Origin: Muricea muricata
Lineage: Eukaryota; Cnidaria; Anthozoa; Malacalcyonacea; Plexauridae
Reading direction: 5' to 3'
NCBI GenBank assembly: GCA_963855995.1
Contig: OY979717.1
Coordinates: 18,823,906 to 18,887,905, forward strand
DNA length: 64,000 nt
The notes under the pieces are model-generated. The model searched no databases. It was not told the DNA's origin and saw only the letters and a list, made by a program, of their open reading frames with translations. Within the stretch, counting starts at the first letter, position 1; every line of letters starts with the position of its first letter. This document shows, piece after piece, positions 10,517-59,470 of this stretch. The translations under genes were made by a program, and so were the position numbers.

Positions 10517-12150
10517 AAATACACACATTAAGTAGCTTAGACAGCTAAATTGTTATGTGATTTACATGAAAAAGAGAGACGAAATCAATTATATGTATAT
10601 AAGTACAATTACAGAGTTTTTGTAAAACTACAATCTATATTAAAAATAATTAATTAAAAGTGCCCCAGAATACCAAAGCCATAGTAGTTCAATAGTTAAA
10701 ATATTTGAAATCCAAGAAAAAACCATTAATTATTGTCAAAAGCCATATTGTATTTGCGGATCGCATATACTAAGGGACTATTGTTAAAACGTTCTGTTTT
10801 GCATTTAAAATTATAAAATTTATTTTCATTAAGTCTCGTGTGTTTCTCCCGTACCAGACCGACAATAGGTGGCAGAAGATCGTTTAGTTTGTGGGTTGGC
10901 TGTTTCATGTCTTTTATTAAATTTACACACATTATATCTCTTCTGTATTCTAGAGTGTGCAAACCACATTCAGTTAATGCCTGTTTGTAAGTCTTTCTTG
11001 GACATATTATTTTCATAGCGCGCCTTTGAATTCTCTCTATATCTTTAGACTGTTCCTGTGTCAGGCCACCATGCCAAATTTGAGCTCCAAATTCCACAAT
11101 TGATCTGATAGCCGAGATATAAAATATCTTTAAGTCTTCTCGTGGAGCATTGTACCCTTTAAGAGTTTTTAAAAAATATAACCGCTTAGCTGCCTTCTTT
11201 ACAACGTATTCCGTGTTTGATTTCCACTTGAGGTCATCATCTATCCATAAACCAAGTAATTTATAAGAGCTAACTCTTTCAAGGACACAGTCATTTATTT
11301 TCATTGCAGGAATAACTGTTCTATCTTTTCGAAAGTCAATGATCATTTCTTTACATTTTTTTGCGTTTAATACCATTTTCTCGTTTTCCGCAAAGGTTTT
11401 TACTGACTCAATTTTCTTGGGTATGTTCCCAATTTCCATTCCAGAAACGTGATAATGAACATCTAACGCCTCCCAACTCGTGGTATCGTCCATGAAGAGA
11501 ATCGTATCACCATCCACAACAACATCCTCGTTTCCAACAACTTGTTCTATAACACTAGGTAGCATATTAATTTTAATTACAAAGGCAATTGGTCCCAATT
11601 TACTGCCCTGTGGGACGCCCCCAGTAACATTTTCAAAATCAGATGTTTCTTTCCCAAACTGTGTGAAATGAGATCGCTCATTCAAGTACGAAGCAAACCA
11701 TTTTATCAAGGCGGATCTTACACCCATTGATCTCATGTTTTCTAGCAATTTATTGTGATCGATGAGGTCGAAAGCCTTGCGAAAGTCGAGGAAGACTATC
11801 CTAATCACTCTATGCCTTTCGTCCATTAATTTGTGCCAATTATGTAATAAATTAACTAAGGCATTAACTGTCGATGATCGCGGTAAACCACCATATTGAG
11901 AATCCGAAATTTTCCCAGTGGTATCATCATACATCCACTTAATTGCAAAGGTTTTTTGGATTTTTGCCAGGACACTTGTTAAAGCAATTGGTCTTAAATC
12001 TTCTGCAAGCGTACAAGGTATTGATTTTGGAATACCCGACACTTTATAATTCTTCCAAACTTTAGGAAAAGTTTTAGATTGAAAGGATTCATTGAAGATT
12101 TCGGTCAAGGGTACAGCAAAGTACTTTGCAAAGGTCTTCAAAATATACGT
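10486..12150 (-). mobile_element. 5'-truncated LINE nested in the foldback loop
   Basis: A minus-strand non-LTR retrotransposon copy ends in a (TAA)n-type tail (TTA repeats at 10485-10515 on the plus strand). Its coding sequence begins abruptly near ILKTFAKYFAVPLTEIFNESF at about 12145, the start of the RT region, so the endonuclease part is missing. About 330 bp of loop sequence between 12150 and 12477 is not LINE-like and may belong to the host element. Confidence 0.8.
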
Positions 12151-12249
12151 GTATAAAAGCGAGAACGCATAGTACACACGAAAGAACAAATTTTCCGACT
12201 GTACGTATATAGTACAGATGTTACCAACTTGTGTTTTGTTATGTATCAT
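10726..12249 (-). CDS. LINE reverse transcriptase, uninterrupted ORF
   Basis: 507 codons are open; the first 40 or so probably derive from element flank and not from the LINE. RT motifs in order are RPIALTSVLAKIQK, SDSQYGG, the first catalytic Asp in FLDFRKAFD, GVPQGSKLGPIAF, and the MDD box (ILFMDDTT) in place of the usual FADD. The thumb and C-terminal region follow (SSYKLLGLWIDDDLKW, GAQIWHGGLTQEQ, IERIQRRAMKII), as in CR1/Jockey-type elements. There is no endonuclease domain, so the copy cannot move by itself, although the frame is intact. This points to a young 5'-truncated insertion. Confidence 0.88.
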   Translation of the reverse strand: MIHNKTQVGNICTIYVQSENLFFRVYYAFSLLYTYILKTFAKYFAVPLTEIFNESFQSKTFPKVWKNYKVSGIPKSIPCTLAEDLRPIALTSVLAKIQKTFAIKWMYDDTTGKISDSQYGGLPRSSTVNALVNLLHNWHKLMDERHRVIRIVFLDFRKAFDLIDHNKLLENMRSMGVRSALIKWFASYLNERSHFTQFGKETSDFENVTGGVPQGSKLGPIAFVIKINMLPSVIEQVVGNEDVVVDGDTILFMDDTTSWEALDVHYHVSGMEIGNIPKKIESVKTFAENEKMVLNAKKCKEMIIDFRKDRTVIPAMKINDCVLERVSSYKLLGLWIDDDLKWKSNTEYVVKKAAKRLYFLKTLKGYNAPREDLKIFYISAIRSIVEFGAQIWHGGLTQEQSKDIERIQRRAMKIICPRKTYKQALTECGLHTLEYRRDIMCVNLIKDMKQPTHKLNDLLPPIVGLVREKHTRLNENKFYNFKCKTERFNNSPLVYAIRKYNMAFDNN

Positions 12250-12477
12250 GTATCATATATATCAACGATCAGATCGCGGTCATATTTCAAAAGTCCAATA
12301 TCAAATTTCAAATTTGCGTTACAAATTTGTCGTGTGTAGAAATAAATTATCTTACCATGCTTTCCAACAAATAGCCGCTGTAGACTTCTTCACATTCGCA
12401 AAATCTCCGTCGTTTAATTTTCTTTTTTTCGACAGCATATCGAGTTCATAGTATTAGTTTAAAAAGTTTCGGAGGTC

Positions 12478-35988: not shown

Positions 35989-36390
35989 GTACTACAACAG
36001 TAGATCCAAGAAGGCCCATCTTCACATCCACTCCTAGTAGATCAAATTCCGTTCTGGTGGGAAGAAATATTAAATTGGAATGGAGCTTCAAAATTCAATC
36101 GGTCAATGATCTTAGTGAGATATCACTTTATAGTTATGAGCTACGCTCAAAAGCAAAGAAAAAAATCGCTTTGAAAAATGTTAAGTCCGGAGAATTTTTA
36201 TATAGAACTGGTTTCAAAGGTCGTTATGTTTGCGAGATCTCTTTTACGGAGAATGGGATCGGACGGGCTTCAATTTCAATATCGAATGTACAATTCAATC
36301 AGACGTATGACTACGGAATCATATTGAAACTCAAAGGCAAAGGACACCTCCCAACGGTGGTGGAAAATTCTGTTTCGGTCCGAGTTGTCG
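35989..36390 (+). CDS. Ig-superfamily surface protein, exon 2 (V-like Ig domain)
   Basis: Acceptor CTATACAG precedes it and donor GTAAGG follows. It codes for a linker (TTTVDPRRPIFTSTPSRSNS), then an Ig-like fold of the invertebrate V-like type: VGRNIKLEWSF for strand B, GRYVCEISF for strand F, and a closing SVSVRVVG strand. The canonical strand-B cysteine is absent (Glu-Trp instead), so only one of the disulphide pair remains. Such domains occur in fast-evolving invertebrate surface receptors. Phase 1-1 makes it a shuffling-competent cassette. Confidence 0.8.
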
Positions 36391-40580: not shown

Positions 40581-42178
40581 TCGGTCGGCTCACGCGGCTT
40601 GTGCCCAGCGGTATCACCCATTAGCGGCGGCACCGACTTCTGACACCGAAAAAAAAAAAAAATAAAAAAAAAAACAGAAACGGGGCGAATTTAAAACTCC
40701 GCCTCGCCTACGGCAGGCGGAGTAATAAGTGCTATGACCATGAAAGTTTTTACAATTTTTATGCTGTTCTAACGGCGGAAGTAATTGAACATCCACTTGG
40801 GCCTGTTACTTAGGCCTTAGTAACATTGGTTCCGCCCATAGCAACATGGACGTTTCGACCAATAAACATCAAGTTACATAACACAAAACAAACATGTGAA
40901 AAACGCACAATGCACGCTCAGTTGCAACAGCGGTAAGTTGAATACCAGGAAATGAATAATTGCACTTGTGAGCATTGAAACTGCAAGTTTTATTTCGACG
41001 TAATCTACGCTTGGTTTAGAAAAGGAAATATAAGATTTTTTAGTTTTGTTTACGGCGTGTACATTGGCGCCGCGTCAAATGGTATTTCATATTTGAGTCA
41101 CTTGATAATACAAAGCAACATTACTTATTACTATTTATTTGAAGTGTTTTAGCGTCGTCGTAACGTTACCGTTCTACATGCCTAAGTTTCACGTTAGCAG
41201 TTGAAAAACAATGTTTGGTTTTAACTATAATTTTAAATAAAATGTGTGAATCACTGAATCAACGTAAGCGGTTTTATTTAGAATAGGTTTTTTGTTACTA
41301 TCCGCAGCTCGCATCGCAATCCGTAGTCCGCATCTGCAATGTCGGTTGTGAATATTGAAATATGTTTTGAATAAATATTGATTGTGTTTTCATTTTACAA
41401 ACGTGTTGTGAATTTTTAAATGTGTTTTAAATAAATATTGAATTGTGAATTATTTATTTTGGAACAGTGTTGTTCTAATTTGAATTGTGTTGTCAGTGGA
41501 CAGTGACGCTTCTGTGCCACCGGTATATAACGGTATTCATAGCAAGAAGATCCAGTCCTTTTATTACTCGCTGTCTAATAATAACAATTCATTATTCGAT
41601 TTTTAAAACTGTCGAAAATTTCCGAAAAACGCGAATTCTGTTTAAGGCACTCAAAAATCTCTATTTTCGTCCGTGCTTGTGTAGTATCCAAAAATGGTAG
41701 TCCTTACAGGTTATTTTCTAACGGCATCTCGCCACAAAACATTTAGTTACCAAAAAATTATTTAGCTGTTCTTTTGCGCCGTCAAAAGGTCAATTGACCC
41801 TGAAGTTGAAGATGTTCAAAGTCTGGAAATGGTCCCACGGAATGAAAGTCAAAAAATATTTATTTCGAGATTTAGCTAATCTAACCTAACTTTAGCCTAC
41901 TCTCTATGTCTTCTCGCTACCGCCCTGCTGTTCTAGGGTGATATTTCGACATGGTTGGTAGGTTGACAAGATTTGACTTCATAAAAGTTATTTCTTTAAA
42001 GTTCCTTTTCTTTAGTGTAAAGGCATATCATATAGCTACCTTGTTTTTTTTATAAATTTGTCTATGTGTAGTTGTCGGGTGGTTATGTAAAGTTCTTTAA
42101 ACTAAGAGAATTTTTACTACTATACCTCCTGTTACATGTGTTTAATAACGAATCGATGTAAAATATTTCTGCTTTCAG

Positions 42179-42460
42179 ACATGGTTCGCAGGGATACAAG
42201 AAAAGACTCGAAAATCATCAGATCATGGTTTGGTCAAAAGCTTGTTTTAGAATGTGACGTCGTGTATGTAAGCGTCAAACCTGTATTCGAATGGTCCAGA
42301 AAATCATTGACTGGAAATACCGTACAAAAACTTGACGTTCCGAACAACATGAAGACTTTGATCATAGAGAATGTTAACACCACAGATTTTGGCGAATATT
42401 TTTGTCTTGCCACATCACCTATGATGCGAATCAAACAAAAGTTCAGAGTCCATAAATTAG
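42179..42460 (+). CDS. Ig-superfamily surface protein, exon 3 (I-set Ig domain)
   Basis: It lies between acceptor GCTTTCAG and donor GTATGA. It encodes a canonical Ig domain: GQKLVLECDV (strand-B Cys), PVFEWSRKS (Trp), IIENVNTTDFGEYFCLATS (DxGxYxC, strand-F Cys). The exon is 282 nt, phase 1-1. An N-linked glycosylation sequon (NTT) lies just before the DFGEYFC motif. Confidence 0.9.
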
Positions 42461-42576
42461 GTATGAAATAAATAAATATATATATATAATAAATATATAT
42501 ATAATAAATTTATATATATATATATATATAATAAATAGACAAGGAATAAAAATAAAACCATATATATGAAGAAAGT

Positions 42577-42790
42577 GCTCAATACCGAAGTAGAGCGGAA
42601 TAGACAATGAAATAGACTTTGGTTACTTCATAAAGTTTTATTCACAACAAATCTGTTTCGTATGACAAGCAATGCTTGCCACACTCGTCAGGTGATGATC
42701 GCGTCGAGTGTGGCAAGGATTGCTTGTCATACGAAACAGATTTGTTGTGAATAAAACTTTATGAAGTAACCAAAGTCTATTTCATTGTCT
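42577..42790. mobile_element. Inverted pair of PLE terminal segments
   Basis: The left half (TAGACAATGAAATAGACTTT, then TTCATAAAGTTTTATTCACA) is the reverse complement of the right half ending near 42790. The pair meets at about 42697. The left half holds an intact hammerhead core on the minus strand. The right half has lost the CTGA of the core. The word GTGCTCAATACCGAAGTAGA at 42582 recurs inverted at 45459-45478, tying this piece to the larger PLE pair. Confidence 0.75.
42642..42695 (-). ncRNA. Hammerhead ribozyme, PLE type
   Basis: Minus strand, in order: stem I TCAC, core CTGACGA, 11-bp stem II (GTGTGGCAAGC with GCTTGTCATAC, two G-U pairs), core GAAA, a minimal palindromic stem III (ACAGATTTGT), cleavage triplet ending GTT, stem I partner GTGA. 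This fits a type I hammerhead. The very short stem III is the known PLE form, thought to work as a dimer. Confidence 0.85.
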
Positions 42791-42792
42791 AT

Positions 42793-42923
<131 letters not shown>

Positions 42924-42948
42924 TAAAGATTTGTAATCCAGGCATATT

Positions 42949-43510
<562 letters not shown>

Positions 43511-43549
43511 TCAATCAATGCACACTGGTTTACTTCATAAAAACTTTAT

Positions 43550-43603
43550 TTGCTACAAATTTGTTTCGTGTGGTAAGCAGCGCTTACCACACTCGTCAGG
43601 CAA
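43550..43603 (-). ncRNA. Hammerhead ribozyme in PLE terminus
   Basis: Minus strand: stem I TTGC, CTGACGA, perfect 11-bp stem II (GTGTGGTAAGC / GCTTACCACAC), GAAA, palindromic stem III (ACAAATTTGT), site GTA, stem I partner GCAA. All invariant core bases are in place. Confidence 0.9.
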
Positions 43604-43645
43604 CTGTCGCTATTGATATTAACTAGGTTATATACATGATAGCTG

Positions 43646-44703
43646 TCATGAATGTTTGATGTGACACGCGCGTAGACAGGAAGCGCAGGATTTCAATGAG
43701 GTGTTGGATAGCAAGTATTTTTTGCGATGTCTGCAACTGGATATTAGTTCGTTTCTGCGGTTCAGCGAGCTTAATTTAGGTTGGCAAATTATTACATATT
43801 TTTCATGTAAACACAAGTCGCATTTTTTTCTCGTGTTGGAATAAGGTTTACAACGTTTTAGGATTCGCCACTTTATTGTATGATCCACATTGCGTTGTTT
43901 GAGTGTCCAAATGTACTTGCTTAATTCAGTGGTATGCTTCTGCTTTTCGTTTCGGAATGAACTCGTATGGTTTAAATACCGGGTTTTGAAGTTGTTTTCC
44001 GTTAGCCCCACATACGTCTGCTCTTCATCGGTATCGTTTCGGGTGACTGTGGCTTGGTAAACTATGCCCGAGGCTTGGCAGTTTCCATCTAATGGGCACT
44101 TTTCTTTATTACAGCAATTGCATTCTTTACTTCTGGTGTCGGTTGGCTGCGGGACGCTGTTTAGAATGTGTTTGTTGTGCGCTGAAATTATGTTTTGTAT
44201 ATTAGGCATGCAGCTGTAGCTAAGTTTCACCGTGTTTCTGTTGAAGATCTTTCGAAGGGCATGCGTTGGGGGGAAGCTTTCGTCGATAATTCTCAAGAAT
44301 TTCCGGCCGATGTTGGTAGCAACATTGCAGCTGTATGGCGGGTTGAACCACACGACATTTCTATTTCTTGTGCGCTTTTTTCTTTCTTCTGGTGGTTTGA
44401 AGTTTAGTTTAAACTTGTAGCCACTTTTTGTCAAAGCTTCTTGGTAGGGTTGCACAGTTTCAACAAACGCTTTTTTGTCCGAAGATATTGCTGATAATCT
44501 TCGGTTAATGGCTTCGGGGATACTGCGTAAGATTGAAGGTGGGTGATTGCTGCTAGAGTTGACGTACTGGATTGTGTTACCGGGCTTCGTGTAGGGCTTG
44601 AAAGTTCCAGTTCTCATGTCGAGTGTGACATCAAGGAAATGGACACATTTCTTGTTGGCTTCAATTGTCAGCTTTAAATTGTGGTCAGCGAAACAGAAAC
44701 ACG
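43646..44703 (-). CDS. Penelope-like RT C-terminus and GIY-YIG endonuclease (5'-truncated)
   Basis: The frame is open from the truncation point (about 44703), with VHFLDVTLDMRTGTFKPYTK at the end of RT; the first ATG is at 44617. RT thumb motifs (NSSSNHPPSILRSIPEAINR) follow, then ERKKRTRNRNVVWFNPPYS, a Cys-rich knuckle (CNCCNKEKCPLDGNC) and the endonuclease (GIVYQATV, TYVGLTENNFKTRYLNH, SKYIWTLK). It closes with a CNLC-like tail (CDLCLHEKYVIIC). Over 320 codons are intact, so the copy is young. The RT palm is missing, so it cannot move alone. Confidence 0.88.
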
Positions 44704-44725
44704 GTGATCTTCAACAAGAAACACG

Positions 44726-45310
44726 GTGAAACTTAGCTACAGCTGCATGCCTAATATACAAAACATAATTTCAGCGCACAACAAACACATTCTAAACAGC
44801 GTCCCGCAGCCAACCGACACCAGAAGTAAAGAATGCAATTGCCGTAATAAAGAAAAGTGCCCATTAGATGGAAACTGCCAAGCCTCGGGCATAGTTTACC
44901 AAGCCACAGTCACCCGAAACGATACCGATGAAGAGCAGACGTATGTGAGGCTAACGGAAAACAACTTCAAAACCCGGTATTTAAACCATACGAGTTCATT
45001 CCGAAACGAAAAGCAGAAGCATACCACTGAATTAAGCAAGTATATTTGGACACTCAAACAACGCAATGTGGATCATACAATAAAGTGGCGAATCCTAAAA
45101 CGTTGTAAACCTTATTCCAACACGAGAAAAAAATGCGACTTGTGTTTACATGAAAAATATGTAATAATTTGCCAACCTAAATTAAGCTCGCTGAACCGCA
45201 GAAACGAACTAATATCCAGTTGCAGACATCGCAAAAAATACTTGCTATCCAACACCTCATTGAAATCCTGCGCTTCCTGTCTACGCGCGTGTCACATCAA
45301 ACATTCATGA
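44726..45310 (+). CDS. Second PLE GIY-YIG endonuclease copy
   Basis: 194 codons nearly identical to residues from KLSYSCMPNIQ to the end of the minus-strand ORF. Observed substitutions are Arg for Gly in YVGLT (YVRLT), which hits the signature motif of the nuclease, and Arg for Cys in CNCC. It lacks the RT end and has no natural start. It is likely inactive. Confidence 0.82.
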   Translation: MKLSYSCMPNIQNIISAHNKHILNSVPQPTDTRSKECNCRNKEKCPLDGNCQASGIVYQATVTRNDTDEEQTYVRLTENNFKTRYLNHTSSFRNEKQKHTTELSKYIWTLKQRNVDHTIKWRILKRCKPYSNTRKKCDLCLHEKYVIICQPKLSSLNRRNELISSCRHRKKYLLSNTSLKSCASCLRACHIKHS

Positions 45311-45352
45311 CAGCTATCATGTATATAACCTAGTTAATATCAATAGCGACAG

Positions 45353-45406
45353 TTGCCTGACGAGTGTGGTAAGCGCTGCTTACCACACGAAACAAATTTG
45401 TAGCAA
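45353..45406 (+). ncRNA. Hammerhead ribozyme in PLE terminus, plus strand
   Basis: Mirror copy of the ribozyme at 43550-43603: stem I 45353-45356 with 45403-45406, CTGACGA 45357-45363, stem II 45364-45374 with 45378-45388, GAAA 45389-45392, predicted cleavage after 45402. Being on the sense strand of the Ig gene intron, it would be present in the pre-mRNA. Confidence 0.9.
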
Positions 45407-45522
45407 ATAAAGTTTTTATGAAGTAAACCAGTGTGCATTGATTGATCTATTATACGCTCTACTTCGGTATTGAGCACTATAAACTGTATATGATTCCGTC
45501 ATCCACAATCAATTTACTCATC

Positions 45523-45524
<2 letters not shown>

Positions 45525-45555
<31 letters not shown>

Positions 45556-45564
45556 ATACATACA

Positions 45565-45600
<36 letters not shown>

Positions 45601-45630
45601 CATACATATATATTATATATATATATATAT
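45525..45630. repeat. TA and CATA microsatellite
   Basis: TA units pass into about ten tandem CATA units and back into TA. The overlapping ORF is an artefact. Confidence 0.92.
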
Positions 45631-45645
45631 TCATTGTGCATATAT

Positions 45646-46799
45646 TATATTTATCATTTATATACCCGGAGCGAGGGGGATTCGGTGAAATATTTTCTGA
45701 AGTGATGATATTTCCCGAGAGCTTTAGCCCTAGGGGAATATCATCACTGAAGGAAATATTTCACTGAACCCCCGAGCGGAGGGTCTATAAATGGTATATT
45801 ATACCGAAAATCAAAAACTTCCGTAAGAATAAACTTTTAAGTTCTTCAAGTTGAACATACCTTCGTAAATATGATGCTCTAAAATACCAAATAGCCAGTT
45901 CTTTGTTTTTATAACGAGAAGTACAGAAAATTCCTTTTAATTTTTTAAATATTTGTGTTTTCAACGTCCTTGTCCTTCAAAATACTTTATAATTCTTCGC
46001 GAAGCTCATCAAACTTTTCGCAAATTCCGCCATTTTTGTTTACGAAAACTTGCCAATCTGTGCTTGCGTGTACAAGCGTTGCTATGACAGCGTGAGATAT
46101 TTACTGTATCTTACTTTAAAAGTGAGATTCAGTGGTATCTCACTTTAAAAGTGAGATACAGTAAGAAATCACCTCATCACGTGGTAGAAATACGATATTT
46201 TGATTGGACAATTTGAGTTTGAGGTATAATATTTATCATTTATATATCCGGAGCGAGGGGGATTCGGTGAAATATTTCCTGAAGTGATGATATTTCCCGA
46301 GGGCTTTAACCCGAGGGAAATATCATCACTGAAGGAAATATTTCACCGAATCCCCCGAGCGGAGGGTCTATAAATGATATATTATACCGAAAATCAAAAA
46401 CTTCCTTAAGAATAAACTTTAAGTTCTTCAAGTTGAACATACCTTCGTAAATATGATGCTCTAAAATACAAAATAGCCAGTTCTTTGTTTATTTTTATAA
46501 CGAGAAGTACAGAAAATTCCTTTTAATTTTTTAAATATTTGTGTTTTTAACGTCCTTGTCCCCCAAAATACTTTATAATTCTTCGTGAAGTTCATCAAAC
46601 TTTTCGCACATTCCGCCATTTTTGTTTACGAAAACTTGCCAATCTGTGCTTGCGTGTGCTTGCGTGTACAAGCGTTGCCATGACAGCGTGAGATATTTAC
46701 TGTATCTCACTTTAAAAGTGAGATACAGTGAGAAACCACCTCATCACGTGGTAGAAATACGATATTTTGATTGGACAATTTGAATTTGAGGTATAATAT
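45646..46799. repeat. 582-bp tandem duplication, each unit with two hairpins
   Basis: The units start at about 45646 and 46226 and share nearly all bases. Each opens with a 130-bp palindrome (GGAGCGAGGGGGATTCGGTG ... CACCGAATCCCCCGAGCGGA; centre GAGGGCTTTAACCCGAGG in unit 2). Each ends with a second palindrome of GTGAGATACAGT and ACTGTATCTCAC words. Unit 1 has extra changes in its palindrome (CCTAGGGG). The outer limits are TATTTATCATTTATAT and GGTATAATAT. Palindromic, possibly a transposon duplicated in tandem. Confidence 0.82.
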
Positions 46800-46817
46800 A
46801 TATATATATATATAAAC

Positions 46818-46854
<37 letters not shown>

Positions 46855-46954
46855 CAGCTGGAAAAATGTATAGTATTCAAATAGTCTAGTCACCCAGCAT
46901 ATTTCCTGGAATACTTAACCAATTTTTGTGACGAATGTTTTTTGTCCCTAACAG

Positions 46955-47233
46955 GTTACGCCGGTTCTCCAAAAAACGTCAAATACAGGTACTATCCATA
47001 TTCCAGAAGCTATGCACTATATTGGGAACAACCATCAACACACAATGGTCACTGGGTGAGAAAATATGTTCTTGAGGAATGGAAAGAGAATAAAGCGATG
47101 TGGGTGCAGCGTCACAACATAACAACATTAACTGTTACCGTAAAGAACATTGAATCGACAAAAAGATACAGAATTTGCTCTGCTAATGAAATTGGCTATA
47201 AAAACACGTCATGTTCAAAGTCTGTAGTACTGC
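46955..47233 (+). CDS. Ig-superfamily surface protein, exon 4 (fibronectin type III)
   Basis: Acceptor CCTAACAG, donor GTAAGT. The 93-residue domain has FN3 landmarks: SPKNVKYRYY at strand A, YALYWEQPSTHNG (Trp of strand B), VRKYVLEEW, and KNIESTKRYRICSANEIGY (Tyr/Arg of strands E-F and the loop NEIGY). It closes with SCSKSVVL. Phase 1-1. The order Ig-Ig-FN3 is typical of cell-adhesion and recognition receptors. Confidence 0.9.
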
Positions 47234-58289: not shown

Positions 58290-59470
58290 TCAAGGAACGG
58301 CAGTTTCCCGTCACGCTCAACTTCAGAAGTGAACGTTATATTGGGACATAGACATATCTCGTTCCCAGGGTAAATTCAGTACATCTGTTTACCGCAAACC
58401 CACGTTTACCGGTCTTTTGACCAACTTCCATAGCTTTATACCACTCACGTACAAGCGATGTTTAGTATCTTGCCTTATTCATCGTATATTCAATCTCTGC
58501 TCGAGCTATGAAAACTTCCACATCCAACTTGAGATTGCTAGAAATCTATTCAAACTCAATGGTTTCCCTTCTCATATGTTTGAACGCATTACTCGTAGAT
58601 TTTTGGACAATACCTTCGATCCTAAACCTTCAGTCCAGACGGTTCCCAAGAAAATAATGTGTTTCTGCCTTCCATTCACAGCAATACATTCTCTCCAAAT
58701 CCGCACCCAAATCGATTGCCTTTGTAATGCCGCTTTCCCTCATCTCGATACTAGTTTTGTTTTCTGCTTCTCCAGACGAATCGCTTCTTTTTTCCCTTTT
58801 AAGCATAAAGTTCCCAAGTATCTGAGATCTAGTGTTGTTTACCTTTTTAAGTGTCGAAGTGCTGTTCCGCGTCGTATGTGGGTCAAACCACACGCCATTT
58901 ACACACTAGAATATCAGAGCACCTGGGTATCTCTCCTATTACGGGAAAACATACCTCTAACCCCACTAAGTCCAGTGTGCTTTCCCACTCGTGTGCCTCT
59001 GGTCACAAAGTGGACTTTGACGATTTCAAAATCCTTTCTTGTTGTTCTGATTCGCATGAGTTAATGATACACGAGAGCCTCCTCATAAATAAGTACAAAC
59101 CTACTCTTAATGTCCAAGGCAGTTCGATTCCTCTTAACCTTTTCTAGTTCGACTGTCTTTGTGTGTAAATGTTCTTGTTGTCCTAATTGTATCACACTGT
59201 CCTATGTTGTTCTAGTCAAATCTAATTGTCCTTTGTAATTTGACACTCTGTAACATAACACTTAAACTTATATATTCAAACATTGCATGCTAATGTATCT
59301 TGTTGCTTTGATATTTATTCTGCGAATTCGATTTCCGCCCGGCAGTTCTATCGCCACAGTATATAATGCTTCATTAGTAAACCGTTAGTTTATGACGTGA
59401 TACTTTAAATAATTGATGTGAATCACCTGAGGATCCTTGAAAAACTGTCAAATACAGTGTAGCGATATTA
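58290..59470 (+). mobile_element. Penelope-like element, best copy of the 2-kb family
   Basis: The sequence enters at the end of the RT domain (RKPTFTGLLTNFHSF in shifted frame), then a 215-codon frame from 58417 with LIHRIFNLCSSYENFHIQLE and FKLNGFPSHMFERITRRFLD. A frameshift near 58850 leads to the GIY-YIG start CCSASYVGQTTRHLHTRISE and a C-terminus ending LLINKYKPTLNVQGSSIPLN at 59147. The 3' leader includes GATTTCCGCCCGGCA near 59330. It is 5'-truncated and frameshifted. Confidence 0.82.

Follow-up and report, generated by a model that had tools for sequence, protein, structure and literature searches.

In the genome of Muricea muricata, copies of a Penelope-like element (PLE) form head-to-head pairs in which, as a rule, only one of the two arms carries a 3′ tail. 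We analysed a 64,000-nucleotide stretch of contig OY979717.1 (hereafter the window) together with the genome to which it belongs (453 Mb, 74 contigs). The 3′ ends of the copies fall into two main classes, SHORT and TAIL, plus two partial tails; the TAIL site is located ~75 nt beyond the SHORT site, and the two-arm arrangement seen in the window was found at about fifty other places in the genome. Exactly one tail was present in 47 of 53 pairs of subfamilies A and B (P 3e-9 against one half). These counts are best fitted by a reaction in which both target strands prime on one RNA, using two start sites, and the products are then end-joined, and we regard this as the probable course of insertion. 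The locus itself is an ordinary PLE insertion, with a (TA)n tract inside a host intron as its target; the paired-insertion counts, not an effect on the host, are the part worth pursuing.

The earlier note on this DNA had placed an inverted PLE pair inside an intron of a plus-strand Ig gene, and this is borne out. The two exons that flank the intron (Table 1) and one further exon at 35989–36390 have AG/GT borders and join in one reading frame, which makes the pair intronic, and the Ig domain is recognized by Pfam. The plus-strand hammerhead copy is in sense orientation in this intron. The inverted arms, described in the note as 700 bp, are 734 nt in length (43506–44239 and 44717–45450), and in an alignment of 741 positions the arms of the A pair differ by 3 substitutions. 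The stretch that separates the A and B pairs contains a 453-bp element (42948–43400), next to (TA)n, whose ends are inverted repeats of 50 bp without a mismatch; among the loci examined it was seen only at L021, which is the window itself. The host intron also contains two tandem units of ~585 bp that are 90% alike (45643–46813).

Table 1. Features of the host intron and its two head-to-head PLE pairs (positions in the window)
Feature	Positions	Strand	Remarks
A pair, whole	43506–45525		two head-to-head PLE copies in the intron
Left arm of A pair, 5′-truncated copy	43506–44693	−	SHORT 3′ end beside (TA)n tract
Junction filler, 12 nt	44694–44705		11 nt repeat nearby arm sequence in direct orientation
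Right arm of A pair, shorter copy, to SHORT end position	44706–45450	+	
3′ tail, on right arm only, then (TA)n	45451–45525	+	GCTC..TTCGG..GAGC, a short hairpin seen by eye
B pair, whole (subfamily B, smaller, head-to-head)	42535–42792		outer limits approximate; tail on left (−) arm only; arms join at ~42705
Stop-to-stop frame, 354 aa	43646–44710	−	C-terminal part of the element's reverse transcriptase-endonuclease ORF
Stop-to-stop frame, 200 aa	44708–45310	+	same C-terminal ORF part, right arm
Hammerhead, minimal type I, subfamily A	45353–45406	+	sense to host gene; predicted cut after 45402
Hammerhead, minimal type I, subfamily A	43550–43603	−	antisense to host gene; predicted cut between 43554/43553
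Third hammerhead, intact, subfamily B	42642–42695	−	predicted cut between 42646/42645
Core-broken B hammerhead, inverted partner of the 42642–42695 motif	42697–42750	+	CTGA of core lost at junction
Host intron, 4,494 nt	42461–46954	+	contains the A and B pairs
Host exon, Ig domain	42179–42460	+	Pfam Ig_3, E 1.2e-07
Next host exon	46955–47233	+	FN3-like by eye; no Pfam match at E ≤ 0.1

The copies have several traits of EN-containing PLEs: a hammerhead in the terminal repeat, 5′ truncation, an optional tail, inverted copies and an AT-rich target. The proposal that they are of PLE type and carry hammerheads at their 3′ ends is supported. The protein domains gave fainter signals. RVT_1 scored E 0.015, below the cut-off, in the longer copy L044. 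For GIY-YIG, Pfam gave no match on the arms, and nothing significant came from a PDB profile search, from Foldseek or from aligning the element to the window's other PLE. In comparisons using a structure model (mean pLDDT 56.5), the I-TevI catalytic domain had the top Z scores (4.5 and 4.3), tied with unrelated folds; a GIVYQA...TYVG motif could be seen by eye. Judged from sequence and model, the GIY-YIG and RT domains of the element are weakly supported. Elsewhere in the window, we observed another GIY-YIG element (58851–59147, plus strand; PF01541, E 6.2e-06) and a reverse-transcriptase frame (10726–12252, minus strand; RVT_1, E 4.4e-23).

An independent type I scan recovered exactly the two 54-nt subfamily A motifs of the earlier note, both with the invariant core CTGACGA/GAAA, a 4-bp stem I and an 11-bp stem II; stem III is 3 bp in length with a 4-nt loop. 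With this core, and with three helices of which stem I is the open one, they are minimal type I hammerheads of the PLE type, and they belong to the PLE copies, at their 3′ ends. The window yielded 3 motifs in the invariant-core scan, against none in 150 dinucleotide shuffles, and the core is kept in 40 of 59 copies examined. The third hammerhead and its broken plus-strand partner had been overlooked before.

The note had also proposed a covariance-model search of the window. Taken literally, with Rfam, this check fails: no match reached the gathering threshold in the whole window, and the 21 matches at E ≤ 10 on 42000–47000 contain no hammerhead. With our own model, for which the sister subfamily B alone was used (10 copies), both A motifs scored 68.9 bits (E 2e-18) and the broken plus-strand motif, at 42699–42750, scored 66.3 bits; because A and B are relatives, such scores indicate kept structure, not activity. 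In 25 copies, selected from 34 distinct ones by at least 13/18 pairs forming, which favours the pairing result, 95.1% of cells pair in the hammerhead helices versus at most 59.1% when slid. Changes on both sides were observed at 3 of the 18 helix pairs of these copies; they mostly separate A from B, and may thus represent few events. We set aside the reading of the Rfam negative as a refutation of the motif, since the sister-subfamily model and the two-sided changes back the structure, neither being a curated or independent model.

Genome-wide, a degenerate hammerhead half-pattern occurs at 180 places (about 100 listed) and the B-form pattern at 129 (100 listed). Among the matches listed, 164 places gave 52 close neighbours (≤6 kb); 49 are in ‘−+’ orientation, which is head-to-head with the 3′ ends outward, two are ‘+−’ and one is ‘−−’. 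One of the two ‘+−’ neighbours is the boundary between the two pairs of this window, the other is tail-to-tail. The latter, L060 (C1:25808206+ and 25808440−), is the only real tail-to-tail pair among the 52. Of the 62 locatable 3′ ends, 56 reach (TA)n and three further ends are unclear; within (TA)n, no target duplication or empty site was readable. By pattern, 63 of 112 clusters have a single end (among the matches listed), and an adjoining inverted fragment was found at 7 of the 28 single loci examined and was absent at the other 21. Many insertions may be single, about half looking so, and pairing as an obligatory rule is unsupported. Whole pairs or copies are also duplicated (L066/L067, L046/L048 and L025/L026), ~4 to 211 kb apart, two of the three sets being inverted.

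The one-tail rule holds in both subfamilies. Among the places listed, 28 of 31 B pairs are single-tailed, two lack a tail and one has a tail on both arms; for the B tail, 126 places were counted, 100 listed and 75 used, the 25 with another tail variant being excluded. Exactly one tail was also found in 19 of 22 A pairs. The other three have none by the strict pattern; among them, the tail of L036 contains an indel and that of L082 is partial. Without four presumed duplicates, two recognized by shared flanks or long colinear matches and two by spacing (one of the latter also backed by a shared tail variant), the count is 45 of 49. Compared to the observed tail frequencies, the one-tail excess has P values of 2e-6 (B) and 3e-4 (A). 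The duplicated pairs L046 and L048 are unlike in tail status, which indicates that tails can be lost after insertion.

The two arms of a pair are also related in length. In the 27 pairs read, arm lengths correlate within the pair (rho 0.82), and the arms are equal within 10 nt in 9 pairs, versus 2.1 by permutation. The SHORT arm is the longer one in 17 pairs and the tail arm in 7, with 3 ties; beyond a difference of 20 nt the numbers are 13 and 3 (P 0.02), a modest trend towards a longer SHORT arm. Lengths were measured with one reference copy per subfamily, and some are lower bounds. The test omits L042 (N between the arms), the duplicates L048 and L067, and L049, which has two tails; it includes the partial tails of L082 and L084. 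In thirteen arms the truncation point lies 35–47 nt before ACGAAAC, immediately 5′ to the hammerhead; truncation at this place was observed at L053, L054, L055, L059, L078, L083 and L084 and at 42642–42750 of the window.

Arm identity alone was indecisive as evidence for the same template, the subfamilies being nearly uniform, and private shared variants were used instead. Variants common to both arms and present in no other copy were found in 4 of 8 A pairs (10 variants) and 4 of 9 B pairs (5 variants); the background is 0.18 (A) and 0.06 (B) per 1000 columns. At the junctions, the arms meet with 1–9 nt of overlap or with short filler. Longer gaps are present at L056, L042 and L044, that of L042 consisting of N letters and that of L044 of arm extending beyond the reference. 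Among the 10 fillers of at least 8 nt, to which the match test was applied (5 shorter ones were outside it), 7 have a closer match to DNA within 80 nt than shuffled sequences have, two of these being of low complexity.

The hammerhead sequence upstream of the cut is retained in at least 54 of 60 subfamily A core ends, which indicates that those inserted RNAs were uncut there and limits the role of cleavage before insertion. Six ends are without the half-pattern, and among them no copy starting exactly at the cut was found as a footprint of cleavage. L085 starts within about 3 nt of the cut; L054 and L088 are mutated and L089 is truncated or diverged. In L086 and L087, the sequence on both sides is kept and the hammerhead is absent, with the break at about the same place in both; perhaps the reverse transcriptase skipped the folded hammerhead. 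On one side, the break of L086 and L087 is within about 3 nt of the cut.

We propose that the (TA)n target would be cut on both strands and that each target strand would serve as a primer at one of two start sites lying close together, with a single RNA, or RNAs from one source copy, as the template for reverse transcription. End-joining, perhaps via polymerase theta, would then link the resulting truncated cDNAs head to head, and the template RNA would usually be uncut at the hammerhead beside the start sites. The one-tail pairs, the co-varying arm lengths, the private shared variants and the microhomology or filler at the junctions all fit two-strand priming followed by end-joining. The co-terminating arms could come from fold-back instead, and the shared private variants from gene conversion between the arms. 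More tentatively, one RNP, perhaps with a protein dimer, may act on one RNA with both cut target strands as primers. Start sites ~75 nt apart would then be used one per strand, a complete event would be head-to-head with exactly one tail, and theta-type end-joining would seal it with the RNA hammerhead still uncut. Paired priming is weakened by the single-ended clusters and by the single loci that have no inverted fragment. Against strand-specific ends, the anole enzyme showed no difference in start site between the strands in vitro (PMC11167929, available in part).

Self-priming has been proposed for the PLEs of Adineta vaga (PMC3846280, available in part). One cDNA or antisense RNA template would fold back and copy itself, giving a head-to-head inverted repeat. 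Arms that are near-identical, or that end within 10 nt of each other as in 9 of the 27 pairs, would be expected from such a reaction, and some junctions are palindromic, for example that of L084. However, self-priming predicts the same 3′ end on both arms, whereas exactly one tail is the rule in the pairs counted, and many junctions have unequal arms and templated filler without any palindrome. We consider self-priming unlikely.

A still smaller chance can be given to two separate insertions, in which a second copy would enter (TA)n beside or inside an older copy by chance at a hot target. (TA)n is indeed the usual target, and one intron of the window holds two pairs and another element, but separate insertions predict mixed orientations, which is not the pattern of the 52 close neighbours listed; the complementary tails and correlated arm lengths also argue against them, as do the junctions read, which are direct joins or short filler without (TA)n.

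The earlier note had further supposed that the plus-strand hammerhead may cleave the host pre-mRNA, joining with the long dsRNA of the arms to give two RNA-level effects in one intron. Neither suggestion found support. Thermodynamic folding of the 1,945-nt inverted repeat (43506–45450), which takes account of neither protein nor transcription order, predicts that the plus-strand motif is paired over its full 54 bases with the minus-strand copy, so that ribozyme and long dsRNA would exclude each other. Forcing the hammerhead costs 77.7 kcal/mol in the whole repeat and 6.9 kcal/mol in the right arm alone. For the lone 54-mer, the exact hammerhead fold makes up 2.6% of the predicted ensemble, with probabilities of 0.96 for stem II, 0.71 for stem I and 0.15 for stem III. 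As the other plus-strand motif in the intron is core-broken, there is no intact cis partner for a dimer. The plus-strand hammerhead is probably silent in the host pre-mRNA, because the antisense copy, lying upstream, is made first during transcription and can pair with the entire motif; against this, self-cleavage of a PLE hammerhead at 3–25 mM Mg is mentioned in PMC11167929. Cleavage of the host pre-mRNA by this hammerhead, with regulation of the Ig gene by ribozyme and dsRNA arms together, is the least probable of the readings considered: the core is intact and lies in sense orientation in an intron, and amniotes have conserved hammerheads in introns (PMC6155905, available in part), but the predicted sequestration by the minus-strand copy and its energy cost, the predicted probability of the active fold (0.026 for the lone motif), the anole PLE hammerhead, which cut only with protein (PMC11167929), and the occurrence of the same motif family at 180 genome places by one pattern all speak against it.

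PLE hammerheads and head-to-head PLE copies are already published; only the counts and the test between mechanisms may be new. Minimal type I hammerheads of PLEs were described by Cervera and de la Pena (2014) and Lunse et al. (2017), as cited in PMC7761336 (available in part); in sequence, the present ones appear alike in type I topology, reduced stem III and terminal-repeat position, and no trait that distinguishes them from those published was found in the material available. Minimal PLE hammerheads may cut via dimers, and their role is called unknown in the same source. Hammerheads were displayed by all PLE sequences then available (PMC6155905). Like the amniote intronic hammerheads of that paper, the present one is of type I and lies in an intron; the amniote ones are conserved across species, whereas this one is part of an element copy within an inverted repeat. 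Our literature search on Penelope-like elements and twin priming returned no paper; the tail rule may nevertheless have been described already.

The EN-containing PLEs of Adineta vaga resemble the present element in their inverted copies, most commonly head-to-head, in their AT-rich targets and in the tail that one inverted repeat may carry, as far as the available part of PMC3846280 describes them. Different from that system, dozens of pairs are present here, which gave counts of tails, arm lengths and junctions that point to two priming events and away from self-priming. The closest biochemical counterpart of two-strand priming is the Poseidon protein of Anolis carolinensis (PAc), an in vitro system from another family. 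According to the available part of PMC11167929, PAc cuts and extends both target strands, initiates at two adjacent sites flanking the tail, and takes unprocessed RNA, with its hammerhead uncut, as the main substrate; the tail is 30–40 bp in a fly element related to PAc, compared to ~75 nt here. The pairing of end types within one insertion is observed here and is not reported for PAc in that part of the paper. The later steps of PAc insertion are called not yet validated there, and the genomic pairs provide a direct test of such a mechanism: dozens of them tie one reverse-transcription start site to each insertion end, and their tail, arm and junction counts argue against self-priming.
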